Below, piece after piece: positions 1 to 41,194 of a DNA stretch of 41,373 nucleotides. Position 1 is the first letter of the stretch; each line of letters begins with the position of its first letter. The translations under genes were made by a program, and so were the position numbers. The DNA lies in the IMG/VR virus record IMGVR_UViG_3300031962_000008, positions 1 to 41,373 of that record; one strand, written 5' to 3'. The notes below the pieces were generated by a model that was given only the letters and a program-made list of their open reading frames with translations, did no database searches and was not told the DNA's origin. Source of the stretch: a virus.

Positions 1-159
1 TGTGCTGTTCCAGATTGATTGATGATAAAAGCGTCGTTGGCAACTGCGATAAACCAGGGTTCTCCATTGAAATCAAGAGTGATCGAACCATTCGCCGCTA
101 AGTTCATCGCACCCGTTAGGTTTGTCTCTCCATCCTTGAAGATAAGATTCGTTGCCGCT
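1..159. repeat. Terminal overlap, left copy (circular closure)
   Basis: These 159 bases recur at 41215-41373 with one difference (T at 127, G at 41341). The gene reading leftward through position 1 continues in frame at 41214, so the repeat is best read as the overlap of a circular assembly of about 41,214 bp rather than a true terminal redundancy. The mismatch changes a GAG (Glu) codon to GCG (Ala) in the spanning gene. Confidence 0.93.
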
Positions 160-434
160 CCGACAGTAAGAATCATTTGATACACGCGGATATTCCGAGT
201 CGTGCTTGTTGAGACAATTACATTATCGCCAGTCGTACTAAAGTTAATGGAAGCACTGACTAAGTTGGCGGTTGTCGTCGTGCTGTAAGCGAGAGCAAAT
301 GGAGTCATGCCGCCAATACCTTGAACAGTTGTTACCTCTGGCGATGGACTCCCCGCATACCCCGTTCCCGCCTTTGCTTGACCGGCGCAAAGCATAACGC
401 CGAGAAACGCCAATCCTGCAAGTAGTTTTTTCAC
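1..434 (-). CDS. Secreted fibre/tip-like protein, runs across the circular junction
   Basis: This is the 5' part of a 154-aa protein. It starts at GTG 434 behind an AAGGAG box and, after position 1, continues at 41214 to a TAA at 41186-41184. The N-terminus is a clear Sec signal peptide: KK, a hydrophobic stretch, then a QAKA|G cleavage site near residue 22. The mature part is rich in Thr, Ser, Asn and Val and looks like beta-structured phage appendage protein. The last codons overlap the next upstream gene start (ATG 41194). It lies at the end of a string of tail and lysis genes, so a role in the virion tip or at the host surface is plausible, but no domain is recognised. The two terminal copies differ by one Glu/Ala codon. 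Confidence 0.8.
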   Translation of the reverse strand, partial: MKKLLAGLAFLGVMLCAGQAKAGTGYAGSPSPEVTTVQGIGGMTPFALAYSTTTTANLVSASINFSTTGDNVIVSTSTTRNIRVYQMILTVGAATNLIFKDGETNLTGAMNLAANGSITLDFNGEPWFIAVANDAFIINQSGTA

Positions 435-5726: not shown

Positions 5727-6767
5727 TCAAAGGCCAGGGTTCCCCCCGACTCCTAAAGAGTTATCAATGAAGCCAGAAACGTAAATATCGTAAGCCTGTC
5801 CCGCAGTGCCCGCTATCTTGAATCCGTTGGCAGCTTGAACCAGAGCCTCAGCGGCGGCGGCAGTGCCGCTTGGCGTCTGAAAGTAATTTGTTGCGGCGGC
5901 GGAATCTGAAAAACTGATGCTCGATCCACCTCCTGAGTTACCCGCCACGCCGCGATAATAAACCAAAGTCATGTTGTTGGGAATTTGGCTTCCTGTGATA
6001 AGTCCAGTAGCATAGGTGTAAGTGGCATTCGTACCAGAAGCCACAGAAGCCACCCTTGGCCCACTTCCTGCTTGTCCCTGTCCAGTTGTTGTGTTCTTGA
6101 ATTTTGTCGTGTTGCCGGACATGACGAAATTCAATATCACGCCGGGACTTCCAGAATTATCCCCATAGCAGAGCATCCCAAGATAGACCCATCCATTTGT
6201 TCCAAAGTAAGTGTTGAGATTGGCGAAATTTGTTTGAATAGGAAGGTAGGTAGAAGCTACGATGACGAAATCAGTTGTATTGACCTGAGACTTGACTGCG
6301 TAATTTGCATACCAAGTATTCGTTACTGCCGTACTGACCATCACGCCGGATTGAGCCGTTCCCGTCAAAGCCATCGTGCGGGTTACATCCAAATTAATAT
6401 GGGAAGCCGTGCTGTCCGTCCTTGCCGTTCCATCGGGGAAAACGATAAGAGCTTGCCCTGCGGTTCCATTTAATCCAACCTCTATCGTCGTGCTACTGAT
6501 CCCTAGATATTGAAGAACCGGCCTTCTGTAATTGAAAATTTGCTGGACGCCGGTGGAGAGATTGGAGTAATTGACGCCGTTGGCGGCGATGTTATTATTG
6601 TTGATTGAGCCGTTATAATCGTTAACAATCGTACTGAAATTTGTATTCATTTGTGTCGGATCAATAACCGTTCCGGCAGTGAAAGTATTTGGAATTGTTA
6701 AAGTTGTCGCCTTTACTGTGGCCACCAATGAGGCCACACATAGAATAATCAAACTTAATTTACGCAT
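5727..6767 (-). CDS. Tail fibre-like protein with signal peptide, 346 aa
   Basis: The start at ATG 6767 is supported by AGGGGGAAC; an upstream in-frame ATG at 6782 is less likely. The first 20 residues (RKLSLIILCVASLVATVKA) form a Sec signal peptide with an AxA-like cleavage site. Next comes an Asn-rich segment with NTFTAGTVIDPTQMNTNF, a motif type common at the start of phage fibre repeats, then long Thr/Ser/Gly-rich beta sequence. It lies directly after the gp10-like tail gene, the position of a tail fibre or spike. A secreted fibre is odd, because virions assemble in the cytoplasm. Confidence 0.7.
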   Translation of the reverse strand: MRKLSLIILCVASLVATVKATTLTIPNTFTAGTVIDPTQMNTNFSTIVNDYNGSINNNNIAANGVNYSNLSTGVQQIFNYRRPVLQYLGISSTTIEVGLNGTAGQALIVFPDGTARTDSTASHINLDVTRTMALTGTAQSGVMVSTAVTNTWYANYAVKSQVNTTDFVIVASTYLPIQTNFANLNTYFGTNGWVYLGMLCYGDNSGSPGVILNFVMSGNTTKFKNTTTGQGQAGSGPRVASVASGTNATYTYATGLITGSQIPNNMTLVYYRGVAGNSGGGSSISFSDSAAATNYFQTPSGTAAAAEALVQAANGFKIAGTAGQAYDIYVSGFIDNSLGVGGNPGL

Positions 6768-6778
6768 TGTTCCCCCTA

Positions 6779-8407
6779 TCATTCAGACCATGCCTCTGGC
6801 TTATAAATTGGAACGTAACCAAGCAAACTCACATTAGTCGCATTCGATGAATTGACATATTGAACCCTGAAAGCCTTGATACCGCTTCTGTTGATTTCGT
6901 TCCTTGCCCACTTCGTTGAAGCTCCCCCCCAATAGTCCGTTCCCCAAATAGCTACCTTCCACAAGGCTCCATTGGCTCCGGCGTTCAAAGTAAAAGTATC
7001 CGCATAAGCGGGACTGTAATCATAAGCCACATTCATCGTTACTGTTGTGGTTGAAATGTCTGTTCCCAGGAACGTGTAAATCCACTTGAGTTGTTTGTCT
7101 AAATCAGGAGAGCCAAGAACAATATCCTGACTGGTGTAGCTAGCGGTAATGGCAGTTGATTTGTTGCTCGGATTGTCCGAGTTTCCCACATCGTGCTTGT
7201 AAACTCCGCCTGTCGTATCCCCGCTGAAAATCCAATTCTGATTGTTGTTATCCTCAACCTGTATCAAGGCATTGGCGTTGATTCCCGCATAAGTCGTCCA
7301 TGCCTTGTGTTGGTTTGTGTCTCCCAAGTGGTAGTCATAGACAAGAATCTCTGAGTTTGTCGTTAGAGAACCCGTAGCAATCGCCAACCAGTATTGGGTG
7401 TATTTACCTGACTTTGCCGAGGTTGATTGGGCAAACTGGGTCTTGTTGATTTTCAAAAACTCATTCCAGATCGGCTCTGAAATCCTATGGATTTGAGGAT
7501 TCCCGAAGTAATCAAATCCCGTCATCTGATAAATGCCGTCAGCTCCCTGCCAGAAAACACCATGATCCCTGATGACCTGAACTGAATTTTTAGCCCAACA
7601 ACCAATGCCTCTGGCTATCGGCCTAGCTATAAAAGCGTTGGCTCCCGAAAGCCCGGTAATTGAGGCGGCGTAAATTGACCGTTTTTTAAATATGAGTAGG
7701 TATCTCCACGCCACAGCAATGTCAACAATCGAATCCCCGTCGTTGTAGCCAAGATCTATGTAATTATTGGTCGGCCATGAATCTACCGTATTGACATCTG
7801 ACCACCTGAGGCGGGATGGATAGGAAGTTCCAGATTCTGTCGTATTGCCAAAAAATAAATAGTTAAAAAAGCTGGCGCAAGTCTTGGCTCCTGTCGGCGC
7901 GCCCGTTAAAGCGGCGGCACTCGCCGATGCGCTTATTTTGAAAGGAGCATCGGTTTCATTACAGAAAACCCGGTAATCATTGAGAGAATCGGATTGAACG
8001 AGATTTGACGCGCTGTTGGTAAGCGTGATTCCATTGGTAACGTCTGTGAAAGAACCGCCAAAGACATTGGAAGTCTTATAGACGCCTGTTCCAGAAACAA
8101 CTGCGAGGAAAGAAGTGCCTGTCTGAGCTAGATGGTAGCCGCCGCCAGTAACGGGAGAAGAACTCAATGCCGCGTTAAAGGCATAACCAGTTCTCTTGGT
8201 AAGTTGCCCTCTTTGAGAAAGGCTGAAATTGACGATGGATTTGGCTTCATCCGTCAGGAAAGGAGATGTGTGATCCTCCATTCCACCGACAAAGTTGAAG
8301 CGTCTCTCCGGGATAAGATCGGTTCCTGGAGGTTTCAAATCCTGTGGAGCCGCGAAAACAGGGGCGATCAGAAATAGAGGAAGCAGGAATCTGGCGAATT
8401 TCCTCAC
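6779..8407 (-). CDS. P22 gp10-like tail stabilisation/hub protein with signal peptide
   Basis: The 542-aa protein has the features of the phage stabilisation protein family (P22 gp10-like, beta-propeller): an early FNFVGGMEDHTSPF segment (about 38-51), an RGQLTKRTGY repeat, then WRYLLIFKKRSIYAAS and a GVFWQGADGIYQMTG strand set. Family members join the portal and adaptor ring to the tail needle. Here it begins with a predicted Sec signal peptide (RKFARFLLPLFLIAPVFA|APQ). It starts at GTG 8407, overlapping the previous stop (GTGA). The signal peptide is unexpected for this family and may be a real adaptation or a membrane anchor. Confidence 0.72.
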   Translation of the reverse strand: MRKFARFLLPLFLIAPVFAAPQDLKPPGTDLIPERRFNFVGGMEDHTSPFLTDEAKSIVNFSLSQRGQLTKRTGYAFNAALSSSPVTGGGYHLAQTGTSFLAVVSGTGVYKTSNVFGGSFTDVTNGITLTNSASNLVQSDSLNDYRVFCNETDAPFKISASASAAALTGAPTGAKTCASFFNYLFFGNTTESGTSYPSRLRWSDVNTVDSWPTNNYIDLGYNDGDSIVDIAVAWRYLLIFKKRSIYAASITGLSGANAFIARPIARGIGCWAKNSVQVIRDHGVFWQGADGIYQMTGFDYFGNPQIHRISEPIWNEFLKINKTQFAQSTSAKSGKYTQYWLAIATGSLTTNSEILVYDYHLGDTNQHKAWTTYAGINANALIQVEDNNNQNWIFSGDTTGGVYKHDVGNSDNPSNKSTAITASYTSQDIVLGSPDLDKQLKWIYTFLGTDISTTTVTMNVAYDYSPAYADTFTLNAGANGALWKVAIWGTDYWGGASTKWARNEINRSGIKAFRVQYVNSSNATNVSLLGYVPIYKPEAWSE

Positions 8408-9516
8408 ATATCCCTCGCAGAAGCAGGAATGTTATAACCCACCGTTCTGACGCCCGTGTAATTCATGTGTTCGGCGACGTGCATATCCTTGACCAAATCC
8501 ATCCAGGCTAGGCGGGCTTCCCTCGCTCTGACAGTATCGTTCTTGTCCAAATAGTCCATATAGGTCATGCCGGAAATGAGAACATGTGGATACGTTTCAG
8601 CAATCCAATCGGTATCGTTGTCGTTGATAAACGGCCAGTCTTTCGTGTAATAGCCGTAACTCGCAATCTGCTGGACTGTGGGAGCCATAAACCTGACTTG
8701 AATGGAGTTCTTCCCAACTGCCGTATAAGTGGTCAAAGCCGCCACAGCCGCCGTCAACATCTGATAGAGCGTTACCTGAGTGTCAGAAACAACTGTCCTA
8801 ACCCTATAAATCGTTGAGCCAATCGTAATTTCCCACCCTGGCTCCAAAGGAGTCGTCCCAGTAAGCCAAGTGGTTCCTGCCCCCGTTAAAGTATTGGAAT
8901 TCGCGCTTCCTGAAACAGTCCCGGAAGAAACAGTTGAAGTCAAAGGGACAGTCCCATAATTGCTCCATAATTCAGGTGTCTGATTCTGACCCGGAGCGGT
9001 ATATTTGTTTCTTAGGTTCCCTTTCCAGGCTTCCGACATCTGGGAGGGGTCGATGTAATTGAGGAAGTCATCAATGACGAGAGCGTCTGGATAGAGGCGA
9101 TTTAAGTCCTGCCAAATAAGGTAGGTGATTCCTGCGGCGGCACTGGTCGTGCCTTGAAAGGGTTGAGTCAAGATAAGACTTGTGGCACTGACAACATTAG
9201 CAATCCGATAAAAGGCGGTTCCCGCTTGAATTAACTGGCCGTTATAAGAACTTGTCCAGGTCGTCCCACTCCCCGTAACTGTATAGGAGCCATTGGTGAA
9301 AACAGCAGTTCCCGTATTATAAGGAACAGGAAGACCGATCCACCCATCCCTGTAATTCCTGTCCCAATGACCGCCATACATGCCAACGAGAGTTGCCTTG
9401 ACAATGTTAACCCGTCTTTGCGCTCTTGCTTTGTTCGCTAAAGATTGAGCGTCGCTTGCAGTGATTCCATAATTCCCAAGCGCACCGGCTTCCTTAAGAA
9501 GATCGAGGTTGACCAA
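8404..9516 (-). CDS. Tail/connector protein with two repeated beta-domains, 370 aa
   Basis: The N- and C-terminal parts are helical, and two similar beta-sandwich modules are inserted: about residues 70-125 (TVTGSGTTWTSSYNGQLI ... FYRIANVVSATSLIL) and 200-255 (TLTGAGTTWLTGTTPL ... IYRVRTVVSDTQVTL). Such modules are frequent in phage tail and neck proteins. It sits between the gp10-like protein and the glycosyltransferases. The start appears to be TTG 9516 directly after the TAA of the upstream gene, so translation is probably coupled. Adaptor, tail-hub or collar function is inference. Confidence 0.6.
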   Translation of the reverse strand: MVNLDLLKEAGALGNYGITASDAQSLANKARAQRRVNIVKATLVGMYGGHWDRNYRDGWIGLPVPYNTGTAVFTNGSYTVTGSGTTWTSSYNGQLIQAGTAFYRIANVVSATSLILTQPFQGTTSAAAGITYLIWQDLNRLYPDALVIDDFLNYIDPSQMSEAWKGNLRNKYTAPGQNQTPELWSNYGTVPLTSTVSSGTVSGSANSNTLTGAGTTWLTGTTPLEPGWEITIGSTIYRVRTVVSDTQVTLYQMLTAAVAALTTYTAVGKNSIQVRFMAPTVQQIASYGYYTKDWPFINDNDTDWIAETYPHVLISGMTYMDYLDKNDTVRAREARLAWMDLVKDMHVAEHMNYTGVRTVGYNIPASARDM

Positions 9517-10734
9517 TTAGCTCACCAATTCCAAAGCAGGTTTCTTGTCCAGCAGATTTGAATAGGCGTCCGCCCATTCCCTTGCCACTGTTTCCACGTT
9601 GTAAAGTGCCTTGCATGTCGCCATTGCATTCATGCGAAGTTTGATCCTCAAATTCTTATCGTTGTAGAGCTTCTCTAAAGCGTTGAACCATTCCTCTTTG
9701 GTTCCCGCCAAAAGAGCATTCTCCCCGTTTACAATATCTTCCTTATAAGGGGTCATATCCTGAAGAATGGAAGGATAGCCACAAGCCGAGTATTCCTGAT
9801 ACTTGATGTTCGACTTGCACCGATTAAATTCCTTGTCAGCCAAAGGAGCAATTCCCACATCTAATCCAATGGTCGAAAGCATAAACTGATAAGAGCCGTC
9901 GTAAAGATCAGCCCAATGCCATTCCTCAAGCTGTTCGTTTGGATAGCGTTTCTTCAAATCAAACCCGATATCGCCCATGACAACGAACTTAGCGTCCTTG
10001 TGCTTATCCAAAAACTTGAAAATGACATCGTTGATATAGAGCCAATCAACCATGTGGGAAGCTCCGCAGGCATAACCAATTCTGAAGCCTTCTCCCCATT
10101 TATCCCTTGAGTTTGGATAAGGCTTCCATAAGTTAAAATTAATGGCGTTTGGTATTGGAACAACTCTTTCAGGATGGAATGGAAGATCGAGCGCACCCTG
10201 TTCCTCGTAGAGAACGGACTCGATGATCTTCTTTTGAAGATAAGGAGTCGTGCAAGTAATGATGTCGCAAATCTTCATCAGGTCATTCCATGACTTCTTT
10301 TGAATCCTGTTGGAGATGAGATTGAATCCTTCCTTCCCATGCTCCCATAGCTTTGACTTTTGGCCTGTCTTTGGGTCTTCAATCTCCACTTCCTCCTGCC
10401 CCAAATGGCAGTAATGCCAGTTGAACACGTCGCACTCCCACGGGTAATCATCGAAATCAATCGCCACTTTCTTTCCAGATTCCTTATATTTCATGGCGAT
10501 AACGACCGGCTTGGAACCGATGACGGACTGTTGAAGAATCACGTCCGCCCAAGCGATGTCCTCTTTCTTGATATGGCTCATGGAAAGCCACGCTTTTTCA
10601 ACAATCTTCCCTTCCGCCAACCCTTGCTTTTGCATTTGCTCCAATGGCATCCGGGAACGCCAGAATTCACATCCTCCGCGACCGAGGTAATACAGGAGAC
10701 GTGGTTTCCTAGACGAGTGATAGCCGTTTCGCAC
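9517..10734 (-). CDS. GT-B fold glycosyltransferase (family 4-like)
   Basis: The 405-aa protein shows the two-domain GT-B pattern. The N-terminal domain has RLLYYLGRGGCEFWRSRMP near residue 11 and DVILQQS. The C-terminal nucleotide-sugar domain has RIGYACGASHMVDW (about 218-231), FVVMGDIG, a DVGIAPLADKEFNRCKSNIKYQEYSACG signature (broken here only for reading: DVGIAPLAD, then NRCKSNIKYQEY, then SACGYPSI) and a terminal helix. It would move an activated sugar to a glycan or protein. It overlaps the second glycosyltransferase by 26 bases, and both are embedded in the tail operon. It starts at GTG. Confidence 0.8.
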   Translation of the reverse strand: MRNGYHSSRKPRLLYYLGRGGCEFWRSRMPLEQMQKQGLAEGKIVEKAWLSMSHIKKEDIAWADVILQQSVIGSKPVVIAMKYKESGKKVAIDFDDYPWECDVFNWHYCHLGQEEVEIEDPKTGQKSKLWEHGKEGFNLISNRIQKKSWNDLMKICDIITCTTPYLQKKIIESVLYEEQGALDLPFHPERVVPIPNAINFNLWKPYPNSRDKWGEGFRIGYACGASHMVDWLYINDVIFKFLDKHKDAKFVVMGDIGFDLKKRYPNEQLEEWHWADLYDGSYQFMLSTIGLDVGIAPLADKEFNRCKSNIKYQEYSACGYPSILQDMTPYKEDIVNGENALLAGTKEEWFNALEKLYNDKNLRIKLRMNAMATCKALYNVETVAREWADAYSNLLDKKPALELVS

Positions 10735-11710
10735 CGATTTCCCTCAAGATGTTCTCCACCGGATCGCCTAAAAGAACCCCCAACTCATGCTGAACGACTT
10801 GCGCCCTTTCCGCTCTCCGGTCTTCGGGGTGTTCAAGAGCGAAATTAACGCACGCCTCAAGAGCCGAAAGCGGGCAATGGTTGGCGGCGTTTGTGTTGAT
10901 AACCTCAATATCCTTGTAGTCAGAACCGCCCAAAAGCGTCCATTTGAACTCGTCGCAGACAACAACTGAAATATCACAGGCCATAGCCAGAATTTCAGTC
11001 GTGGATTCATCTAGGCTCACGATACAGTCAACATTGGAAAACAACTCGAACAACTGCTTCATATGATCGGGGCCGCCTTGATAGCTCTGGATAACGTTTC
11101 CGTGATAGAGCTTTGAGACATGGGTTCCGACTGTTTTGGCGATCAAAGTGAATCCTGAAATATCATGAAAGGAAACGCCGCCTTTTTGCTTGTAATCCCA
11201 TTTGACGTGAAGATCGTCCCTGTTCTTATTAAGAAACTCTTGAGAATTCTTAAGCGTCATCTTCAAAAGCTCATAATAGACAATGAGATTCTCAGGCTGT
11301 TCGTGGTCGGCGTTGACGGGAATAAAAACGACGTTTTTCTCTGAACGCTCAACTACTGGACGCTGAAACTTGAGAAGCGGGCAACCGACAATCACTGTCT
11401 TGTCTCCATATCCCAACTTCACCATGCGGTCATAATCGGCTTGTCCCCAACAAAGGAACTTATCGGCCACCAACTCGGCTCCCAAAGGCTTCTGGTAGTC
11501 CCTGACGGCTCCACGCCCATGCTGGACGACGTAAACTTTCTTCCCCACAGACTTCGCCCTGACCGCCAGATTCTTAAGGGGCCCCCTTGTATCGGCATAC
11601 ATCACAAGAACGTCCGCATCTTGGGGGGTTGTGATCTCATGGCCTTCTGCTAAAACCGCCTCTCTGACGTGCGTGAAAAGATTATTCCACTCGGAGAAAT
11701 AGAATTTCAT
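10709..11710 (-). CDS. Second glycosyltransferase-like protein (GT-B-like)
   Basis: The 333-aa protein starts at ATG 11710, which overlaps the stop of a 48-aa gene (ATGA); longer in-frame starts would run into that gene. It has an N-terminal Rossmann-like domain (DADVLVMYADT, KKVYVVQHG) and a C-terminal domain with NVIQSYQGGPDHMKQLF and DCIVSLDESTTEILAMAC, like the acceptor-binding end of GT-B transferases or CDP-glycerol-type transferases. Paired with the preceding family 4-like enzyme it suggests two-step glycan building. The exact sugar cannot be read from sequence. Confidence 0.65.
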   Translation of the reverse strand: MKFYFSEWNNLFTHVREAVLAEGHEITTPQDADVLVMYADTRGPLKNLAVRAKSVGKKVYVVQHGRGAVRDYQKPLGAELVADKFLCWGQADYDRMVKLGYGDKTVIVGCPLLKFQRPVVERSEKNVVFIPVNADHEQPENLIVYYELLKMTLKNSQEFLNKNRDDLHVKWDYKQKGGVSFHDISGFTLIAKTVGTHVSKLYHGNVIQSYQGGPDHMKQLFELFSNVDCIVSLDESTTEILAMACDISVVVCDEFKWTLLGGSDYKDIEVINTNAANHCPLSALEACVNFALEHPEDRRAERAQVVQHELGVLLGDPVENILREIGAKRLSLV

Positions 11711-11853
11711 TCGTCCCATCCCATTAAACGCGCATAGAGAGCTTCGCGAATTTCCCAAACATGCTTATCCTCTCCTTTTATATCGAAGATGAAAGTTGTT
11801 TGTGAATCACAAGGAATAAATGTCGTTTTCTCAAAATCATTTACTCTAATCAT
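11707..11853 (-). CDS. Small hypothetical protein, 48 aa
   Basis: ATG 11853 overlaps the previous stop (ATGA) and the TGA overlaps the glycosyltransferase start (ATGA), so it fits a tightly coupled operon. The protein is acidic and beta-then-helix (TTFIFDIKGEDKHVWEIREALYARLMGW split into two recognisable parts: TTFIFDIKG and VWEIREALYARL). The family is not recognised. Its place between head and glycosyltransferase genes does not reveal a function. Confidence 0.68.
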   Translation of the reverse strand: MIRVNDFEKTTFIPCDSQTTFIFDIKGEDKHVWEIREALYARLMGWDE

Positions 11854-12565: not shown

Positions 12566-13453
12566 TTAGTTGGTCGCAAAAGCAGTAAACACACCGCTTG
12601 CGTTTTGGTTCAGGTACTCGAGCGTCAACTCCCCAACGATTTGGAATTGCCTCAAGTCGCCAACTTTCGCCAATTCTTCGGCGCGAGGTTTTCTCAACCA
12701 AGCCAGCCGGAAGTAATCGTCGTTCATCACTAGACCAACGCCTTTAGGAATATACCGATCAAGGAACACTTCAATCTGACCAAAGTCCGATTGATAGATG
12801 TTGACCACATTAATCAACGTTCCATCCTCGGCATTGATGTAGCGCGTGTTGGAGGTCGCGAACTGGCTGATTTTTCGCTTCAGCCATCCGGCCACAAAAC
12901 ACACTTTAGGAACCGCGCCGTTCTCGAAGATCGTCTGAAGCAGGTTGTTGAAGATCGTCTCGGACAACTGAGTATTCCCCTGCGAACCAGACTGAGCAGT
13001 CGCTTTCGCCACGTCCAAAAGACCCGTCATAGTTCTAGCCGTCGAGGTAGAACCTACGGCGGAAGTCTGAAGGATGATGACGTTCTCCGCGTCCAGCTTC
13101 CACTGCTTCATATGCTTCTTCAACTCATAAGCGTATTCGGAGTCAATATCAACTTTGAGCACCGCTTCCTGAGTTCCCGAAACCGCCCCGAACTGCGCCA
13201 GAATCTGGCAGTAGTTGGACTGCCTGACTTTCTGCGCCGTCGTGGAGGCATTCGCGGTGAAACCTTCAACCTGGGCATTGGTGGTGGAAGTCGCCAACGT
13301 GTCCTGCACCCATTGATGCTGGGTGGCGTAGGCAACACTGTCTTTCAACCTGGAAAAGATTGGAGCCTCTTCCGGCGAGATAATCTGAATCAAATCCAGA
13401 ATATCCTCGCGGTTTCCGGCAGTGATGTTATACGTTTGTGCTGGTGTAGGCAT
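12566..13453 (-). CDS. Major capsid protein (SU10/DUF5309-like, HK97 fold)
   Basis: The 295-aa protein fits the SU10-type major head family: an N-terminal arm, NREDILDLIQIISPEEAPIF (about 14-33), HQWVQDTLA, EGFTANAS, RQSNYCQILAQFGAVSGTQEAV in two adjacent blocks (RQSNYCQI and AVSGTQEAV), then an E-loop/P-domain helix region and a C-terminal DYFRLAWLRKPRAEEL followed by a beta strand ending in LEYLNQNASG. It follows the scaffold gene and has a good AGGAG box. Length is usual for the family. It should form the icosahedral shell. Confidence 0.85.
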   Translation of the reverse strand: MPTPAQTYNITAGNREDILDLIQIISPEEAPIFSRLKDSVAYATQHQWVQDTLATSTTNAQVEGFTANASTTAQKVRQSNYCQILAQFGAVSGTQEAVLKVDIDSEYAYELKKHMKQWKLDAENVIILQTSAVGSTSTARTMTGLLDVAKATAQSGSQGNTQLSETIFNNLLQTIFENGAVPKVCFVAGWLKRKISQFATSNTRYINAEDGTLINVVNIYQSDFGQIEVFLDRYIPKGVGLVMNDDYFRLAWLRKPRAEELAKVGDLRQFQIVGELTLEYLNQNASGVFTAFATN

Positions 13454-14259: not shown

Positions 14260-14625
14260 CTATACGCCGCTGACGCTCGGCGAGGCGGTTTCCTCATCGG
14301 GACGAGTAGACTCAATCAATCCGGCCTGCTTTCCAGTCCTCATCGTCTCAATAAATTTTTGGAGCATTTCATTAACCACATACTCAAATGCGTGGACATT
14401 GCCACACTCATAAGCGGCTTTTGAGGCATGACCTTCCTTGATAAAGGCTTCCATCAAACATTGATGGGAGAAAATATCCTCGGCCAGAATCCCCTTGATA
14501 ATGTTCCAAACCTCCGAGGCAAGGAAAGCCTCAAGCTGACCGGCCAGAGAATGCCGGTCGTTTGAGCGGACGATATCCGGCAAAGTGCGCTTAGGCTTGG
14601 CTCGCCGGACTTTGCGCCTGTTCAC
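14260..14625 (-). CDS. Hypothetical protein between portal and scaffold, 121 aa
   Basis: It starts at GTG 14625 with AAGGAG eight bases upstream, and overlaps the 3' end of the portal gene by 35 bases. A basic N-terminus (NRRKVRRAKPKR) is followed by helices containing LEAFLASEVWNIIKGIL and HAFEYVVNEMLQKFIETM. It is similar in size and helical content to small proteins that follow portal genes in many podoviruses. The function is unknown. Confidence 0.72.
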   Translation of the reverse strand: MNRRKVRRAKPKRTLPDIVRSNDRHSLAGQLEAFLASEVWNIIKGILAEDIFSHQCLMEAFIKEGHASKAAYECGNVHAFEYVVNEMLQKFIETMRTGKQAGLIESTRPDEETASPSVSGV

Positions 14626-16759
14626 TCGTCAATCTCCTTTGCTCACGCATATTCTCCAAAGCGACCAGGTGGTTCTGGTTATTCTTCTGCGCTCCTGCCA
14701 ATGGATTAGTTGGCTGACCAGGTTGTCCAGGTTGGCCGCCCATTGCCTTACTCTGCGCCAAAGCCTGCTGTTCCTGTTGAGCCTGAACTGCTGCCCTCTG
14801 GCGTTCAATCGCCTTCACTTGATCCGGTGTCGCCAGAATCTTGTCCATTGCCACCGGGTTAAGACGTTTGATGATGTTAAAAAGCGTGTAGTATTTGCTC
14901 TCAGGCAGGTAGGTGAGATATGGGTCTTGTCCCACTGTGTTATAGAGGAGAACGGCATTCTGAAGCTCGGCAGACTCAGAGATTATGCTTCCACCCGCCA
15001 ACTCAAAGAAGAAGTGCCCTTTGATCTTGTCCCTGAAAATCCTGATGAGATTGGAGCCGTCGTTCGGAGCCGTCTGGCTTGAAGAATCCCCCATAATCAT
15101 CAACTCTTTCGAGAAAGGCATGTGCCTTAAATTAAGCCGGTAAATATAGTCAAACATCGGAGCCATCTGAGCCTTGATGCGCTCATAGAGCATATCGAAG
15201 CGAACACCGGAGCGCGAAAGAGCCTGGCTTACCTCATAGGCCGTCGTATTCGCCTTCTTTGAAACCTCTCCCTGAACCACCTCATTGATGGAGGTCATGC
15301 GCTCGATAATGCTCATGAGAAGGTTAATCATCTGAAAAGAGACCTGCGGTTCTTCCGGCTGAGGCGGGATGTAGACATTTTTGGAGGGTTCCCTAGTAGG
15401 AATCCAAGAGTTCGGGCCGAAGTTGCCCATACTCTGAGGGTTAAAGCCGCCCGCAGGATCGTAGAACTTGGGAGGCATGGACTTCATAAGCCCTATGTTG
15501 ATGACGGTATTGATGAGGAGGTCGAGTTCGGCGACTTGGGTTCTGATGATTTTTGGCAGGGACTCTCCGAAGGGGGTTTCGTCAACCGGAAACGGGACGA
15601 GTGGGAAGAAAGGTCTGACTCCATCCAGGTTAAGTTTGCAAGAGAGGAGAGTCTTTGAGGCTCTGTCAATTCGGGCCACGACTTCCCGCTTTCTTCCTTT
15701 GACATCCCACTGGCCATGCCACTCAAGAACCTCAGCCAATTCTCTTTTGATCCTGAAATCGTTAGAGTAACCCGTCTGCTGGTATTTTGAAGTGAGAATG
15801 AGATCGAGTCCGATTCTCTGGGATGTGCGATCACGAAGAATAAGCCTTTTGTCCAAAGGCTTAAGCCGTTTGAAGACTTCATTCTTAACGATACCGACAT
15901 TTTGCGCTTCACCCGCTTCCTCCTCCGCTTCAAGTTGTGCGATGGTTGGGAACGTCTGCTGAATGACAAAGGGTGAGTTCTGATAAGCCTCGAAAGGACT
16001 ATTGCCGGGAGCCCACACCGGCAGGTAAATCCGGCTTCCGCCAATCACATAAATCGTTACGCCGTCTTTGATAACGCGTTCCTGCGTTACGTCAAACGGC
16101 ACAAGAACCATCCCGGCGTCCTTCAATTCTTTTTCTGTAGCGTCTACCTCATCGGGATCAACGGAAATAACCGTATTTCCCGCCCTATTCACTACCGTAT
16201 TCGTTTCAAGCTCATAGGTGAAGCCGTCCTGCTTGTCCTCTGGAACCCACCGCCGGACAGTCGTTTGAACCTCAACCGTAGAATGGTCATAGATCGGCTT
16301 TAGAACCGAGAAACTTTCCACTAAAGCATTCGGCAGGGCGTGGTCAAGAATGGCGCGAAACCTAAACTCATTCCTCGCCCCGTGATTCATGAGGTCAGAA
16401 ACGTATTTGGCCGCTTCCAAAGACTCAAGGTTTGTTGGGCGAACTTGGATCACGTCCTCGGGAGCGAAGATTGACTTCATCACGTTGGCGCAAAGAGTGT
16501 CCACCGCAATCCGGTGAAAACCACTTGATATCTTGGCCGCACCTTTGAAAGGCCAGTCCTGGACGTTTTTGATGCCGAAATAAGCCTTTACATCCCTGTT
16601 GCGCTCCCCCATCCATTCCTGCTTGGAGGCCTCAGCAAGGAGCATGTCGGCCAGAATCCGAAGGACAAGATCCTCCGGGTTGTCAACGTCGGCGGCGAAT
16701 ACGGCTCCGCGTGGTTGTTCGGCGAGTTCTTCCTGTTTGACGGTCTTTGTATCGGCCAT
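14591..16759 (-). CDS. Portal protein (P22-type, 722 aa)
   Basis: This long portal has the regular features of the P22-like family: an acidic N-terminus; DPDEVDATEKE and a wing domain; the stretch LPKIIRTQVAELDLLINTVINIG (in pieces LPKIIRTQVAELD and LLINTVINIG); GEVSKKANTTAYEVSQALS; RFDMLYERIKAQMAPMF (stem helix); and a Gln/Ala-rich C-terminal barrel-like helix (residues about 660-722). It forms the dodecameric channel at the packaging vertex. The start ATG 16759 follows AAAGGAA and lies only 13 bases after the U-tract of a terminator-like hairpin. Confidence 0.88.
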   Translation of the reverse strand: MADTKTVKQEELAEQPRGAVFAADVDNPEDLVLRILADMLLAEASKQEWMGERNRDVKAYFGIKNVQDWPFKGAAKISSGFHRIAVDTLCANVMKSIFAPEDVIQVRPTNLESLEAAKYVSDLMNHGARNEFRFRAILDHALPNALVESFSVLKPIYDHSTVEVQTTVRRWVPEDKQDGFTYELETNTVVNRAGNTVISVDPDEVDATEKELKDAGMVLVPFDVTQERVIKDGVTIYVIGGSRIYLPVWAPGNSPFEAYQNSPFVIQQTFPTIAQLEAEEEAGEAQNVGIVKNEVFKRLKPLDKRLILRDRTSQRIGLDLILTSKYQQTGYSNDFRIKRELAEVLEWHGQWDVKGRKREVVARIDRASKTLLSCKLNLDGVRPFFPLVPFPVDETPFGESLPKIIRTQVAELDLLINTVINIGLMKSMPPKFYDPAGGFNPQSMGNFGPNSWIPTREPSKNVYIPPQPEEPQVSFQMINLLMSIIERMTSINEVVQGEVSKKANTTAYEVSQALSRSGVRFDMLYERIKAQMAPMFDYIYRLNLRHMPFSKELMIMGDSSSQTAPNDGSNLIRIFRDKIKGHFFFELAGGSIISESAELQNAVLLYNTVGQDPYLTYLPESKYYTLFNIIKRLNPVAMDKILATPDQVKAIERQRAAVQAQQEQQALAQSKAMGGQPGQPGQPTNPLAGAQKNNQNHLVALENMREQRRLTSEQAQSPASQA

Positions 16760-16771
16760 TCGTTCCTTTCG

Positions 16772-16826
16772 TAAAAATAGAAACAGCCTATAACAGAGGA
16801 TCACGGCCTCCGTGTAGGCTGTTTCT
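16772..16826 (-). terminator. Composite intrinsic-terminator hairpin directly before portal
   Basis: Perfect 12-bp outer arms (AGAAACAGCCTA at 16779-16790, TAGGCTGTTTCT at 16815-16826) enclose an inner CACGG-cct-CCGTG hairpin (16802-16814) that touches one outer arm and leaves 11 unpaired bases on the other side. Read leftward, the hairpin ends in TATTTTTA and the portal ribosome-binding site follows within about six bases. It looks like an intrinsic terminator, but placed so close to a start codon it may act on read-through or mRNA stability. Confidence 0.75.
16807..16820. repeat. Near-direct repeat flanking HNH remnant, copy 1
   Basis: CCTCCGTGTAGGCT here matches CCTCCGTGATAGGCT at 17215-17229 except for one inserted A. 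The two copies bracket the broken HNH endonuclease gene; this one forms part of the terminator hairpin before portal, the other the ribosome-binding region of the HNH gene. Confidence 0.6.
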
Positions 16827-17856: not shown

Positions 17857-18044
17857 TAACCCTCCATACCTTGAAGAACAGTGGACGGCCCTTTGGCTTC
17901 GTTTCGTTTGCGCCACAAATCACGACAGGGGCCGGAACAGAAACGTTGAGCAGAACCTAATGTTCCACTAAATTCCGGGTCTTCAATAGGGCTTGCATTG
18001 CTGTTTAACGTTACGCCACAGTTTTTACAAGTTGTGTTCGCCAC
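17856..18044 (-). CDS. Small zinc-ribbon protein, 62 aa
   Basis: It contains CKNC near residue 6 and a second pair, FCSGPC (about 35-40), followed by RDLWRKRNEAKG. This is a four-cysteine arrangement as in small zinc-binding phage proteins. Its start region overlaps the 3' end of the cytidylyltransferase gene by 34 bases. Binding partner unknown. Confidence 0.65.
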   Translation of the reverse strand: MANTTCKNCGVTLNSNASPIEDPEFSGTLGSAQRFCSGPCRDLWRKRNEAKGPSTVLQGMEG

Positions 18045-18565
18045 TTTTCAACCTCCTTTCTCTCGAACTCTTTTCTCACTCTTTCCAAATCTTCCGGCGT
18101 ATTAACGCTCCAATCTTCCTCATGGCAATTTGGAACATGCCTCGGATGAATCACATGCTCCCGATGAGTCCAGTAAGGACGACTCAAAACCTTGGCATCG
18201 AACACCTGAACGTCATAACCGCTCGGATACTTCTTTCGATTGCAGTAGTAAGGCTTCAAACTGTTCTCAAACTCGTGGATTGCCTCATCAATAATCTCTC
18301 CCGTCAAAAGAGGACAATCAGAAGTGAGGCGAACCACCACGTCGGGTTTGTTAATTTCCACAACAGCTTTGAAGCGTCCAAGAACGTTGTCCTCATCTAG
18401 GTTTTTGAAATTCTCCGCCCATGCCACGCTGACATCATTCACATACTTTGCCGCTTGTGCGGCTTGAGTTACTCTCGCCACCATTGTCTTGTCGCCGATA
18501 AGTTCCAAAACCTTGCACGGAAACCTCTTTGAATTCAATCTCGCCTGAATGATGGCGAGCGTCAT
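18011..18565 (-). CDS. SpsF-like cytidylyltransferase (CMP-sugar synthetase family)
   Basis: The 184-aa protein begins AIIQARLNSKRFPCKVL, the N-terminal nucleotide-binding signature of SpsF / CMP-KDO synthetase-type enzymes. RLTSDCPLLTGEIID near residues 79-93 gives the metal-binding Asp, and a late EDWSVNTPEDLERV segment is typical of the family. It would activate an acidic sugar with CTP. It is about 60 residues shorter than usual SpsF proteins. The ATG overlaps the GNAT stop (ATGA). With the GNAT, aminotransferase and reductase it suggests a nonulosonate-like or surface-glycan pathway. Confidence 0.82.
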   Translation of the reverse strand: MTLAIIQARLNSKRFPCKVLELIGDKTMVARVTQAAQAAKYVNDVSVAWAENFKNLDEDNVLGRFKAVVEINKPDVVVRLTSDCPLLTGEIIDEAIHEFENSLKPYYCNRKKYPSGYDVQVFDAKVLSRPYWTHREHVIHPRHVPNCHEEDWSVNTPEDLERVRKEFERKEVEKWRTQLVKTVA

Positions 18566-18987
18566 CTTTCCATTCGGTAACATCTGAAACCTTTAACAAG
18601 CTCTATACTAACGAAGCGAAATCCACCTTTCAGGAAAGCAATAATGGAAGGAATGTTGATTGGCAGGATATGAGCCACCAGTTTCTTTTCATGGGATATG
18701 GATTTTATGGCAGAAGAACCAATCCCCCTGCTTCGCATGGATGGATCAATCGTAATTGAAACCTCCACTAAATCCTGATTATCATCCATTCTTAACTGTC
18801 CCACTGTTTTATGATCCGCTTCGATCATGGTGATCTTCCTATGGTTTCTATTAAACCAATCCTCGTGAGTTTCGAGAGCGATGACGTCCTTGTCAAAAGA
18901 GAACTGGCGGCTCACAGGATCATTCCGCCAAGCAAGAATCAGGGGACTGTCTGCCAACGTCGCTTCCCTAAAAGTAATGTCATTCAT
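18562..18987 (-). CDS. GNAT acetyltransferase, PseH-like sugar N-acetylation candidate
   Basis: The 141-aa protein has FREATLADSPLILAWRNDP (about 5-23), VGQLRMDD, VEVSITIDPSMRSRGIGSSAI (core RSRGIGS: the acetyl-CoA pyrophosphate loop near residue 80) and a late IAFLKGGFRFV strand. The WRND and NR.W motifs occur in PseH-type enzymes that N-acetylate amino sugars. Start is taken as ATG 18987, which overlaps the terL stop; TTG 19023 and ATG 19011 are alternatives. It directly precedes the SpsF-like gene in the operon. Confidence 0.78.
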   Translation of the reverse strand: MNDITFREATLADSPLILAWRNDPVSRQFSFDKDVIALETHEDWFNRNHRKITMIEADHKTVGQLRMDDNQDLVEVSITIDPSMRSRGIGSSAIKSISHEKKLVAHILPINIPSIIAFLKGGFRFVSIELVKGFRCYRMER

Positions 18988-20335
18988 GGACAAAAGCGGG
19001 AACTTCCCCATAAACCGGCTCAACTAATTGGAATGGAATAGCCACTCGCTCATCTCTAATCCAGCTAAGAGCGTCGAGGCAATCAATCTTAAAGCTCTTA
19101 ATGTTGGGGCGATAATAACGGAATTGTCCGATGAGTGGACTCTCAGGTAATAAGTGGATGGCGCGACCCTCCCACAAATTCTGCAATCCCATAATTCGTT
19201 GGTGCTTGCCAGTAATACCCTGATGGGTAAGTCCGATATATTTGACATCGAGTCCCCTTTGTATCGCCATGCGCTTAAAGTCAAAGCCGACGGACTTCTG
19301 GAAGACTTCTTCCTCCATGCCGATAGCGTAAGCCGATCCGAACTTGCCTGAGTAGCGAACCCCCACCCTCACCATCTGCTCACAAACGGCATGGGTGTCG
19401 TCCGAATGGAGGACGTTGGTTTCAATCTCCCAGAGGTTGTTCTGGGCGTCCTGACCGACCGTTACTATCGCCGAGTCACAGGCCGCCTCGCGCTCCGCCA
19501 CAGCAGGGTCAACAAGAGTCCTAACGGTAACGAAGGCTGGAAATTCATATCGTTCGTTGATTGTCCTGTATTGATCTTTGAAGGGTTGTGTCTTTGGGTC
19601 TACGCGCTGAAGAAGCCACTCTCTTGCAAACGCAAGACTTCCGATTTCCACTTCCCTCTGCTTTAACTCATCCGATGTAAAGAGATAAGGGAATAGTGCC
19701 TCGCTCTTGTCGTTCAAGGCTGGATACGCCTTAAAGATATATCCCTTATTTGTCTCTAGTTGTTCGAGTAAATCTCCCGCATCCAAAGGGGTTCCGACAA
19801 CGATGATTTTAGTATCACGCTTTGCCATTCCCGATAAAGCTCCGTTAAAAAAGTCTGCTTGTTCTTCAGGGCTCATTCCTCCTCTGTCTTTCAGTGGATC
19901 ATCCACGATAATGTAATCCGGGTGCGCTCCGCGAATTGAGGAACCAAACCCCTCGCCGCGAATATAGGAGCCGTCCACAAACGTCAGATTCAACGCCTGC
20001 CATATCTGGGACTTTCGGGGACGCATACTGGCCAAGTATTGATTGTGCATGATCTCGTCATTGATCTTCCTTAAGAGGTCTTTGGCCTGGTCTTCCGAAT
20101 AACTGATGTCAATGATCTCAACCGGCTTCTTCCTGCTGTAGATGAGCCAGATAGGATAAGCCTTTGAAAAAAACCAACTCTTGCCATGAGATCGAGCGCA
20201 CTCCACCAGTATCCGCTTTTCCTTATCAATGAGATCGTCCCACTCGTTGTGATGCGGAACCCAAGTCATTCCCAATACCTCACGACAGAAGTATGGGAAA
20301 CTAGCTTTGGCGAGCGCGGCTATCTTCAAATCCAT
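18980..20335 (-). CDS. terL: Terminase large subunit
   Basis: This 451-aa packaging ATPase/nuclease has a Walker A-like CARSHGKS (46-53), Walker B YIIVDDP (141-147), coupling motif IIVVGTP (177-183) and an RNase H-like nuclease domain starting with LVDPAV (D276), with further acidic residues at CDSAI and in the C-terminal DALSWIRDE. It moves DNA into the procapsid through the portal and cuts it. It follows the small hairpin protein with a TAA-ATG junction and precedes the GNAT gene. Length is normal. Confidence 0.93.
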   Translation of the reverse strand: MDLKIAALAKASFPYFCREVLGMTWVPHHNEWDDLIDKEKRILVECARSHGKSWFFSKAYPIWLIYSRKKPVEIIDISYSEDQAKDLLRKINDEIMHNQYLASMRPRKSQIWQALNLTFVDGSYIRGEGFGSSIRGAHPDYIIVDDPLKDRGGMSPEEQADFFNGALSGMAKRDTKIIVVGTPLDAGDLLEQLETNKGYIFKAYPALNDKSEALFPYLFTSDELKQREVEIGSLAFAREWLLQRVDPKTQPFKDQYRTINERYEFPAFVTVRTLVDPAVAEREAACDSAIVTVGQDAQNNLWEIETNVLHSDDTHAVCEQMVRVGVRYSGKFGSAYAIGMEEEVFQKSVGFDFKRMAIQRGLDVKYIGLTHQGITGKHQRIMGLQNLWEGRAIHLLPESPLIGQFRYYRPNIKSFKIDCLDALSWIRDERVAIPFQLVEPVYGEVPAFVHE

Positions 20336-20751: not shown

Positions 20752-21030
20752 CTACTTACAAGCCGTCGTGGAACTGGTCAAAACAGAAAAACTTCCCACC
20801 GCCGTTCCCGTTGACACGCACACCGGGGCAACGCACGTCGAGCAGTAATAGATCAACCCCAACTGCGCCGGAACCATCGCCTGTAACTGCGTCAACGTCT
20901 GGCTTTTGACCTGGGTGTCGTTCAGGATCAGAAGATTGTCCGAAATGACGGTTCCGCCCAAGTCGGTTAAAGATGCAAACGCTACTCCACTAAAAACGAG
21001 AAGGCTAATTAGGCAAAGAAGCCTGTTCAT
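20752..21030 (-). CDS. Small secreted protein with Cys pairs, 92 aa
   Basis: The N-terminus NRLLCLISLLVFSGVAFA|S is a clear Sec signal peptide. The mature part has a strand-rich region and YYCSTCVAPVCVSTGTAVGS, with closely spaced cysteines that could form disulfides outside the cytoplasm. Similar short Thr/Ser-rich tails occur in phage appendage proteins. The start overlaps the 3' end of the small-terminase candidate by 26 bases. Function unknown. Confidence 0.68.
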   Translation of the reverse strand: MNRLLCLISLLVFSGVAFASLTDLGGTVISDNLLILNDTQVKSQTLTQLQAMVPAQLGLIYYCSTCVAPVCVSTGTAVGSFSVLTSSTTACK

Positions 21031-31424: not shown

Positions 31425-32252
31425 ATGAAAAAACTGCTGGCCTTTCACAATGACCAAAAAATCAAAGAGAAATACTTGGCGAGAGTTCGCGCCCACGCCA
31501 AAGCAGATGAGATCATTCATGGAACCTATTGGACGGGAAGCAAAGGATGTGCTGTGGGATGCACGATTCATTCAGGCAATCACAACGCCTATGAGACTGA
31601 ACTTGGAATACCCGAATACCTGGCACGAATCGAAGACGGAATTTTCGAGAATATGTCCAACGGGAAATCAAAAGAGTGGCCCGGGAAATTCCTTGAGTCA
31701 ATCCCGGTAGGAGTCGATCTTTCAAGAGTAGTTTGGAAGTTTTTGGATTGGCTTTTGGTTGATGAGAAAAATGGGATACTTCAATTCGCAATTGAGGCCG
31801 ATAAGAAAATAATCCAAGAAGTAGCCACTCTGTGTCGCCGCCAGGGAAACGGAGATAAACCTTCCGTTAAAGAGTGGTCAGAGGCCGCAGAGGCCGCAGG
31901 GGCCGCAGGGGCCGCAGAGGCCGCAGGGGCCGCAGGGGCCGCAGAGGCCGCAGGGGCCGCAGAGGCCGCAGGGGCCGCAGGGGCCGCATGGGCCGCAGAG
32001 GCCGCAGGGGCCGCATGGGCCGCAGAGGCCGCAGGGGCCGCAGGGGCCGCAGAGGCCGCAGGGGCCGCAGGGGCCGCAGAGGCCGCAGGGGCCGCAGGGG
32101 CCGCATGGGCCGCAGAGGCCGCAGGGGCCGCATGGGCCGCAGGGGCCGCATGGGCCGCATGGGCCGCAGGGGCCGCAGGGGCCGCAGAGGCCGCATGGGC
32201 CGCAGAACGGCAAGGTGAAAAACTTCTTGAACTTATGAGTGAGGCAAAATGA
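31425..32252 (+). CDS. Phage protein with GCAVGCT domain and long AAX repeat, 275 aa
   Basis: The N-terminal 150 residues match a widespread phage/mobile-element family of unknown role: [19 protein letters not shown] (about 37-55, a possible metal/Cys site), [20 protein letters not shown] (about 60-79) and [12 protein letters not shown]. The C-terminal part is a 108-residue repeat of Ala-Ala-X with X = Gly, Glu or Trp, then a short [11 protein letters not shown] helix. Relatives often carry Ala/Trp/Glu repeats here, but this one is long and very regular. It starts behind AAGGATAAAACA and overlaps the helicase loader by four bases. Function unknown. Confidence 0.8.
31881..32204 (+). repeat. 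36-unit 9-bp coding tandem repeat
   Basis: 36 consecutive units of the form xxG-GCC-GCA. The GCC-GCA part is identical in all units; the first codon is GAG (11 units), GGG (18) or TGG (7). A block E-G-G-W-E-G-W occurs at units 10-16 and again at 23-29, so larger segments were also duplicated. The repeat is in frame with the 275-aa protein and open in other frames only because of its period. Confidence 0.95.
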
Positions 32253-34951: not shown

Positions 34952-35316
34952 CCTCCTCCCCAGATTTTGAGAAGGCGAATGAAGTCATCAAGCATTATTG
35001 CAAAGACGACATAGCCATCAGGAACCCGACGGGGAAGTGCGACCATTTGGAATATCCGTCGTATTGCGAAACTTGTAAAGAGTTAAGCGATCCGATGAGT
35101 TTGTTAGAGAAAATCCGCGCCCTCGAAAGCCAAAATCAAGCCTTGAGGGAGGCGTTGGAGAGAATTTTTAAAGTTACACAATTCGATCATCCAGCAAGTC
35201 AAATTATTGGTTCAGAGGAATATGAGGGAGCATGGCTTGATTGCGTAGAAATCGCACAGAAAGCCCTCTCAATCTGCCCCTCCGTTCCCGATTCCAAGAT
35301 GAAGATAAACAAGTGA
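34948..35316 (+). CDS. Hypothetical protein with Cys pairs and coiled coil, 122 aa
   Basis: It has CDHLEYPSYCETC (about 31-43) and a coiled coil (LLEKIRALESQNQALREAL, about 52-70). Small proteins with an N-terminal Cys cluster and a coiled coil are frequent in phages but uncharacterised. Its end overlaps the reductase start (GTGA). Confidence 0.65.
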   Translation: MTSSPDFEKANEVIKHYCKDDIAIRNPTGKCDHLEYPSYCETCKELSDPMSLLEKIRALESQNQALREALERIFKVTQFDHPASQIIGSEEYEGAWLDCVEIAQKALSICPSVPDSKMKINK

Positions 35317-36149: not shown

Positions 36150-36315
36150 TGATAATAATGGTTTTGCGCCAAGAAAAGTAAGTAAGAAAGAATTCGAGGA
36201 GAACAAACGAATGAACAAACGATTGAATAAATTCTGTTATGTTTTATGTGTAATAACTGGATTTTTATTAGCTATTGTTTTTTTAATAAAACATTTTTGT
36301 AAAATTCATTTGTGA
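36124..36315 (+). CDS. Small tail-anchored membrane protein, 63 aa
   Basis: ATG 36124, with AAGGAGA upstream, overlaps the reductase end by 26 bases. A charged N-terminal half (KKEFEENKRMNKRLNK) leads to one C-terminal membrane helix (VLCVITGFLLAIVFLIKHF). It might place the surrounding sugar enzymes at the membrane; this is only a guess from position. Confidence 0.66.
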   Translation: MKDKKYYLDDNNGFAPRKVSKKEFEENKRMNKRLNKFCYVLCVITGFLLAIVFLIKHFCKIHL

Positions 36316-38852: not shown

Positions 38853-39254
38853 CTAGAAAAGCCCGATACTTGCTTTTGCTCCATAGATCATTGAACCCTT
38901 GAAGTCATTTCCAATAAACCCTCCAATTTCTATATTGTCAGGAAGCAAGTTCTTGTTGGTAATGATGTTTGACAGCTTAAGATCAATTCCTAGAAAAGGA
39001 ATCGCATCTCCTTGAAGCGAAGTAACTCCTCCTACTGTTCCCTCAAAATACCAAAGGTCAGCAAAAGAAGTCTCCGCACCAAGCATCATGCGTCCCTTAT
39101 TGAAATCATAGAGTGTTACCTGTTCCAACCCCTGAGAAAACGGCACATTGACTGTCAAAGGCCCTACGGTCAGACTCAACGGATCGGCATAGGCTGGCTT
39201 CGGCCCAATGCTAAATAATCCTAATAATCCCCAAATTAGAGTTATACGTTTCAC
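38853..39254 (-). CDS. Secreted, beta-rich protein, 133 aa
   Basis: A Sec signal peptide (KRITLIWGLLGLFSIGPKPAYA|D) precedes strand-rich sequence with LSLTVGPLTVNVPF and IEIGGFIGNDFKGSM, and the chain ends in a phenylalanine, as outer-membrane barrel strands often do. It is too short for a complete barrel unless it oligomerises. It starts at GTG 39254 (GTGA overlap). A phage-encoded envelope protein that changes the host surface is an attractive but unproven idea. Confidence 0.68.
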   Translation of the reverse strand: MKRITLIWGLLGLFSIGPKPAYADPLSLTVGPLTVNVPFSQGLEQVTLYDFNKGRMMLGAETSFADLWYFEGTVGGVTSLQGDAIPFLGIDLKLSNIITNKNLLPDNIEIGGFIGNDFKGSMIYGAKASIGLF

Positions 39255-40311: not shown

Positions 40312-40514
40312 TTTTTAACAATTGCATCTTCGAGACGTATGATTCTCTCATGGTCTGCTTTTACCATCGGAATAATCTCGCTTATAACAGATTCCATTTG
40401 AGTGCTAAGTTTCCAATCTGAATGAAGCCAGCCAATAACTGCCCCAATGGTAATGACCATAGCGACAGTAATGTCCATGCGATCATGCCAACGATGAATG
40501 CGACGTTCTTCCAT
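40308..40514 (-). CDS. Small membrane protein with coiled coil, holin candidate, 68 aa
   Basis: A basic N-terminus (EERRIHRWHDRMD) is followed by one membrane helix (ITVAMVITIGAVIGWLH, about 15-31) and an amphipathic coiled coil (SEIIPMVKADHERIIRLED). This type-III-holin-like or spanin-like plan, next to the DUF5675 protein, makes it the best holin candidate. TAATG overlap with the fibre-like gene upstream. Confidence 0.66.
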   Translation of the reverse strand: MEERRIHRWHDRMDITVAMVITIGAVIGWLHSDWKLSTQMESVISEIIPMVKADHERIIRLEDAIVKK

Positions 40515-41194
40515 TACGGCGTCCCTATATCTTCCACGTCAATAGAGCATGTCGCGTTGGCTCCATCTGAGCAGAATGTACACGTAGGGGTCGTTCCCGC
40601 CGCCTGAAATAGAACCGTATAAGTGGTGGGGCTTGTGGTATTTGGCAAATCAACCCAGGTGAACGTTCCAGTCCCAACTCCCGTGACACCAGCCACAGCA
40701 TCGGTCGCACTCGCTAAAGGATTTGTTCCTAAAGCTGTGACTCCTGAATTAGAAATATTCAACTGGCATTTGGCCCCCAACGAACCAGAGGCAGAAATTG
40801 GGCCTGAAACTGTCACTCTGATTTTTGATCCCGTGAAGCGAGGAGTAATTTGTGCAGTTAATCCAGTATTTGACCAAGTTGTTCCACTTGTCGCAGTAGA
40901 AACATTGATGACCGAAAAAGAACTAGTAATGACTGGAAGCCAAGTTGGTACTCCTCCATTTCCATTACTTCTTACGTCATATCCAACCGTTCCAACGCTA
41001 GATTGACCTCCCAACCCAAGTGGGCCAAGTATGGTGGTTGTTGATGAAGACGATCCAAATGAATTTGATCCAGTCCATGTTTGTGTTGATCCCAACTGAA
41101 TCGCATTCCCGCCAGATATACTACTGGCAAAACATCTTTTTATAGGGAATAAACCAAAAAGTAAAAGAAGACAAATTTTTACTTTACTGTTCAT
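40514..41194 (-). CDS. Secreted fibre/tip-like protein, 226 aa
   Basis: ATG 41194 follows AGGGAGGA; the long upstream extension in this frame overlaps another gene and is not used. A Sec signal peptide (KVKICLLLLFGLFPIKRCFA|S) leads to Thr/Ser/Gly-rich beta sequence (STTTILGPLGLGGQSS, TGSKIRVTVSGPISA) and a C-terminal Cys cluster (CTFCSDGANATCSIDVED) ending in IGTP. It resembles receptor-binding tips. It lies next to another secreted protein that crosses the circular junction. Confidence 0.7.
   Translation of the reverse strand: MNSKVKICLLLLFGLFPIKRCFASSISGGNAIQLGSTQTWTGSNSFGSSSSTTTILGPLGLGGQSSVGTVGYDVRSNGNGGVPTWLPVITSSFSVINVSTATSGTTWSNTGLTAQITPRFTGSKIRVTVSGPISASGSLGAKCQLNISNSGVTALGTNPLASATDAVAGVTGVGTGTFTWVDLPNTTSPTTYTVLFQAAGTTPTCTFCSDGANATCSIDVEDIGTP

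Follow-up and report, generated by a model that had tools for sequence, protein, structure and literature searches.

The new element in the DNA analysed here, a single IMG/VR virus record of 41,373 nt (IMGVR_UViG_3300031962_000008; the whole stretch is called the window below), is a tail module of the podovirus type with predicted Sec leaders on its parts. Virion parts of tailed phages normally stay in the cytoplasm until the particle is built, and textbook tailed phages are assembled wholly in the cytoplasm and exit by lysis. From the sequence patterns described below, we give slightly less than an even chance to the proposal that the outer tail parts of this phage leave the cytoplasm, lose their leaders by cleavage and are then attached to filled heads, either on the periplasmic side or during lysis.

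The window phage is a podovirus-like tailed virus of bacteria. Matches to phrog profiles identified the large terminase (18980..20335, minus strand; phrog_38, E-value 1e-56), the portal protein (14591..16804, minus strand; phrog_1216, E-value 1.3e-19) and the major capsid protein (12566..13453, minus strand; phrog_1328, E-value 6e-74), all of them leaderless. The gene in the head-tail adaptor position (8404..9516, minus strand) has no leader either and shows a weak match (E-value 0.036) to phrog_2941, the family of the leader-bearing adaptor of locus L105. A direct repeat of ~157 bases, with one mismatch, is common to both ends (1-157 and the last 159 bases) and lies inside one gene, that of the 154-aa protein described below; the record is therefore circular or terminally redundant, and the genome is probably complete. 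No tRNA was found in the window. Single-sequence scans of IMG/VR revealed no close relative of its gp10-like protein, capsid, terminase or 154-aa protein. Searches for the host returned, among the INPHARED isolates, a single weak capsid match in an unannotated fecal phage fragment and no match to a leader-bearing gp10. Two genome scans for prophages yielded nothing beyond a gp10-like fragment without a leader in a Marinimicrobia MAG. Genes that by eye look sugar-related occur at scattered places in the window (9517-11758, 18011-19023 and 35241-37541): two glycosyltransferase-like genes between the capsid and tail genes, an SpsF-like cytidylyltransferase, a GNAT acetyltransferase, an RmlD-like epimerase and a class-III aminotransferase. 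A similar glycosyltransferase block occupies the same position in loci L013-L016, L021 and L022. The second half of a 275-aa ORF at 31425-32252 is a long Ala-Gly-Glu-Trp low-complexity repeat.

Leaders were called with a rule that demands a basic n-region, an uncharged hydrophobic core and a small-x-small site at 15-38, in a strict and a relaxed version; it called 14/14 known E. coli leaders. All six proteins for which the earlier note had claimed Sec leaders were found, its coordinates for the gp10-like and fibre-like pair being right, and each combines a basic start, an uncharged hydrophobic core and an [AVC]-x-A site, i.e. a canonical predicted Sec/SPase I leader. Five of the six pass the strict version, the 92-aa protein passes only the relaxed one for want of a Shine-Dalgarno sequence, and none of the other genes passes when the rule is applied to all ~70 genes of the window. 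Shuffled N-termini pass at a rate of 0.44%, which amounts to 0.31 per genome against the 5-6 observed, and a chance origin of the six leaders was rejected on this count; internal Met positions pass at 0.13%. Among control phages, P22 has just two proteins that pass, the Rz and Rz1 spanins, and T7 has none among the proteins tested. For five genomes of rumen phages, the published number of signal peptides is 0-2 per genome (PMC5723332). Inspection of the cleavage sites revealed no SPase II lipobox ([LVI][ASTVI][GAS]C) in any of the six leaders. The leader-bearing proteins are not enriched in cysteine, and a disulphide or oxidative-folding benefit was rejected on that ground.

The gp10-like virion protein (nozzle or phage-stabilization type; 542 aa, 6779..8407, minus strand) begins with a predicted signal peptide of 19 codons (8351..8407, minus strand; MRKFARFLLPLFLIAPVFA/APQ, where the slash marks the predicted cleavage site; rule score 4.76). 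From residue 47 it matches the "virion structural protein" family phrog_3287 (E-value 3.8e-30), a profile that is not itself named nozzle; its relatives are annotated as phage stabilization protein, and the gp10 family is also present in IMG/VR loci. The GTG start at 8407 overlaps the upstream stop (GTGA) and has a Shine-Dalgarno sequence, GAGGG; in the same frame, the starts that follow are a poorly spaced TTG and an ATG within the conserved FVGG region. The gene lies between adaptor and fibre, in the window as in its relatives, and occurs once in the window; there would be no copy besides the exported one. This position after the adaptor and before the fibre, the phrog_3287 family and the phage-stabilization annotation of relatives are shared with the nozzle proteins P22 gp10 and T7 gp12, and by eye the N-terminal LKGGISQQPDILRYPDQGSRQVNGW stretch of T7 gp12 is similar to the window protein; unlike the latter, both P22 gp10 and T7 gp12 are leaderless. 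Because direct single-sequence comparison with P22 gp10 or T7 gp12 failed (hhalign probability <1%), "gp10-like" is used as a name only. The fold model of the protein was unusable (pLDDT 30.7).

The adjacent fibre-like protein (346 aa, 5727..6767, minus strand) shares 34-43% identity with the product of the gene that follows gp10 in related phages. Its ATG at 6767 is directly preceded by AGGGGG, and a longer form of 351 aa could start at an ATG at 6782. The predicted signal peptide covers 20 codons (6708..6767, minus strand; MRKLSLIILCVASLVATVKA/TTL; rule score 5.09), and the mature TTLTIPNTFTAGTVIDPTQMNTNFS aligns with M-AINFTVSYTFSPSTTISSSQVNTNFS of leaderless relatives; the predicted mature N-terminus is thus the relatives' fibre N-terminus, and the putative leader is an exact N-terminal addition. 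The C-terminal domain resembles phage proteins, including those of the DUF2793 type, and was modelled mostly at pLDDT 70-90, with no confident match in a comparison of the model with the PDB.

The other four leader-bearing proteins are all encoded on the minus strand. The 154-aa protein spans the window ends (1..434, then 41373-41184; leader 369-434, MKKLLAGLAFLGVMLCAGQAKA/GTG, rule score 4.51). A 226-aa fibre-like protein (40514..41194; leader 41126-41194, MNSKVKICLLLLFGLFPIKRCFA/SSI, ending KRCFA/SSI, score 4.47) found no family or phage match. A 133-aa protein (38853..39254; leader 39186-39254, MKRITLIWGLLGLFSIGPKPAYA/DPL, ending KPAYA/DPL, score 4.05) found no family match, ends in a C-terminal Phe like an outer-membrane protein (by eye) and looks like a separate envelope protein. 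Beside the terminase lies a 92-aa Cys-rich protein (20752..21030; leader 20974-21030, MNRLLCLISLLVFSGVAFA/SLT, ending GVAFA/SLT, score 5.0), whose gene has no Shine-Dalgarno sequence. No family match places any of the four in the virion. Among the six, a tail role is supported for the gp10-like and fibre-like proteins only.

Phages with the same gene order (L013-L016, L021, L022 and L029: glycosyltransferases, adaptor, gp10, fibre, internal proteins) encode gp10 and fibre proteins 24-27% and 34-43% identical to those of the window. In contrast to the window, their full-length gp10 and the corresponding fibre are leaderless and start just downstream. Since the relatives' fibre begins at the predicted mature N-terminus of the window fibre, the putative leader was either added to an existing protein in the window lineage or lost in the others. 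L013, L015 and L022 each encode one other, leader-bearing fibre-like protein (L013:13961-14515, L015:6760-7560, L022:1618-2253), two of which have an LNI.T.DG..N.YPY.AKF start. A leader-bearing fibre-like protein together with a leaderless gp10 is possibly an intermediate state.

The signal peptides for which the earlier note had proposed a search in relatives are thus absent from the same-order phages, but they are present on gp10-like proteins of 13 other loci (L049, L054, L062, L081, L082, L083, L084, L085, L092, L094, L104, L105 and L111) among 69 tabulated gp10-like IMG/VR loci. Ten of the 13 were assigned by rule and L049, L083 and L085 by eye (MKQFISLILILLFCNYGYTA, ..SFIFTIMIVSPLFS and MLWLILFLIINIYA, respectively). 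In most of them the leader immediately precedes a DFSGGLNT-type start, whereas in L104 it lies far upstream of that start. Comparison of profiles with hhalign ties two leader-bearing groups to the window family (97.7% and 98.3%). As in the window, a leader on the gp10-like protein goes together with leaders on other tail-module genes in L065, L061, L057, L084, L054, L075, L094, L111, L062, L066, L049, L104 and L105, which differ from the window in a mostly longer gp10 (520-1012 aa), in their small exported proteins and, in some, in an adaptor leader. The adaptors of L066 and L105 carry the leader immediately ahead of the part that matches the adaptor profile (phrog_399 and phrog_2941), and that of L062 was assigned a leader by eye; the L081 adaptor is leaderless and matches the same adaptor profile from residue 1. 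No leader was found on the L081 terminase, portal and capsid or on the L066 portal and capsid, and the window is split likewise, its capsid, portal, terminase and adaptor-position gene being leaderless. Two further arrangements were observed: in L044, L045 and L048 a leader-bearing protein of 136-370 aa recurs as the second gene before a leaderless gp10, and in L081:7829-8275, L082:8083-8598 and L083:7681-8169 a leader-bearing protein of 148-171 aa directly follows the capsid gene, a place in which one could expect a decoration protein of the capsid.

The leaders cluster. Among genes other than gp10, 38/206 (strict) or 50/206 (relaxed) carry leaders in the 13 loci (18-24%), against 10/576 or 15/576 (2-3%) in 46 loci with a leaderless gp10 (Fisher test, 3e-15 strict and 5e-19 relaxed, values not corrected for kinship). 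With the window included, the gene after gp10 bears a leader in 7/10 leader loci vs 0/36 others, and of the eight nearest genes one or more do so in 12/12 vs 5/39. A test corrected for kinship had too little power, the number of independent pairs being 1 on well-supported branches and 5 on the best tree. In the tree of gp10 cores, built without the leader and with L084 and L104 excluded, the leader label needs five changes, of which well-supported branches force one, and it is more clustered than in 500/500 shuffles; these patterns suggest that gp10 leaders were likely gained independently.

We infer export, cleavage, periplasmic storage and final joining, in the following way. The gp10-like and fibre proteins, and probably the 154- and 226-aa proteins, would carry cleavable Sec signal peptides; the outer tail proteins would cross the inner membrane and be processed by host signal peptidase I, and the mature products would correspond to what related phages make without a leader. 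The heads, the packaging of DNA and the internal proteins would remain cytoplasmic, and the exported parts would complete the DNA-filled heads from the periplasmic side, either because heads dock at the inner membrane or because the parts meet them once lysis breaches it. The earlier suggestion of an unusual assembly route or membrane-anchored tail parts withstood all the checks applied and is partly supported; the recurrence of leaders in 13 loci, clustered on tail genes, strengthens it. The gp10 equivalent of P22 helps to retain DNA; a head awaiting an exported gp10 would therefore need another plug, which counts against export, as does the lack of any visible gain such as disulphide bonds.

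The main rival to export with cleavage is a membrane-tethered version, in which the leaders are targeting or anchor segments that hold tail parts at the inner membrane, the site of head docking and maturation, until late cleavage or extraction frees them. The hydrophobic cores are long enough to lodge in a membrane, some next-gene proteins (L057, L066) look more like anchors than like cleaved leaders, and heads of several phages mature on membranes. However, an anchor needs no signal peptidase site, and each of the six window leaders closes with a correctly spaced small-x-Ala site. We regard tethering as unlikely. Lower still do we rate a role outside the virion, where the proteins would be exported to act at the envelope or beyond it (superinfection exclusion, adhesion, decoys). 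It has a precedent in Lom of lambda (PMC12309495), and it would agree with the envelope-like 133-aa protein and with the lack of a virion match for the 92-, 154- and 226-aa proteins, but gp10 is single-copy and stands in the conserved adaptor-gp10-fibre order, so that the virion would be left with no gp10, and in other loci adaptors bear leaders as well. An envelope-only role thus suits the 133-aa protein and not gp10; by the same token host-surface display, also proposed earlier, is unlikely for gp10 and possible for the small proteins.

It is improbable, too, that the leaders are passive, i.e. recombined from host secreted-protein genes and neutral or tolerated, with fast cytoplasmic folding blocking export. 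Fibre domains are modular and shuffled among phages, and the same-order relatives manage without a leader; yet several genes carry leaders together, and leaders are found again in phages with different gp10 types, a clustering that disfavours passive gain. An artefact of wrong start codons or chance hydrophobic N-termini has very little probability. The homologues do start downstream, an outcome that the earlier note would have taken against the leaders, gp10 uses GTG and the 92-aa gene has no Shine-Dalgarno sequence. Against this stand the Shine-Dalgarno sequence and stop-start overlap of gp10 with its poor alternative starts (TTG spacing, ATG inside the FVGG region), the chance rate of 0.13-0.44% per gene and the recurrence in 13 loci. 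The long form is favoured by the reading frame, by the Shine-Dalgarno sequence or the overlap of stop and start, by the three-part build of the leader and by the fact that it recurs. Wrong starts were rejected, and the downstream starts read as a gained or lost leader.

Export of the outer tail parts would have only partial parallels. Inoviridae make their coat and minor virion proteins with signal peptides and assemble them at the inner membrane. Such filamentous phages hijack secretion (PMC4823517). Their genome is of ssDNA and encodes no terminase, portal or HK97-type capsid, whereas the window phage is of the tailed dsDNA type and has genes for all three functions, terminase, portal and capsid. 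In tailed phages, Sec leaders are known from spanins, from certain endolysins and from envelope proteins, among them Lom (PMC9144972, PMC8951688, PMC12309495), an exported outer-membrane protein of lambda whose gene lies among tail genes (PMC12309495). These are envelope or lysis proteins, while the leaders of the window are on nozzle-like and fibre-like proteins. In the open-access text that was searched, no account of leaders on a nozzle, adaptor or main fibre came to light.

More tentatively, we consider a recurrent, possibly convergent morphogenesis that would send the parts distal to the portal (the adaptor in some lineages, nozzle, fibres and decoration-like proteins) through Sec, the tail being added on the periplasmic side to heads already filled while in the cytoplasm. 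Such phages could be searched for on a large scale, and tested, by a simple signature, a leader in front of a DFSGGLNT-type start. If this reading is true, assembly would be split across the inner membrane; DNA retention and the timing of lysis would come under new constraints, and there may be a tie to a special host envelope. If proved, this would be a new kind of tailed-phage assembly.
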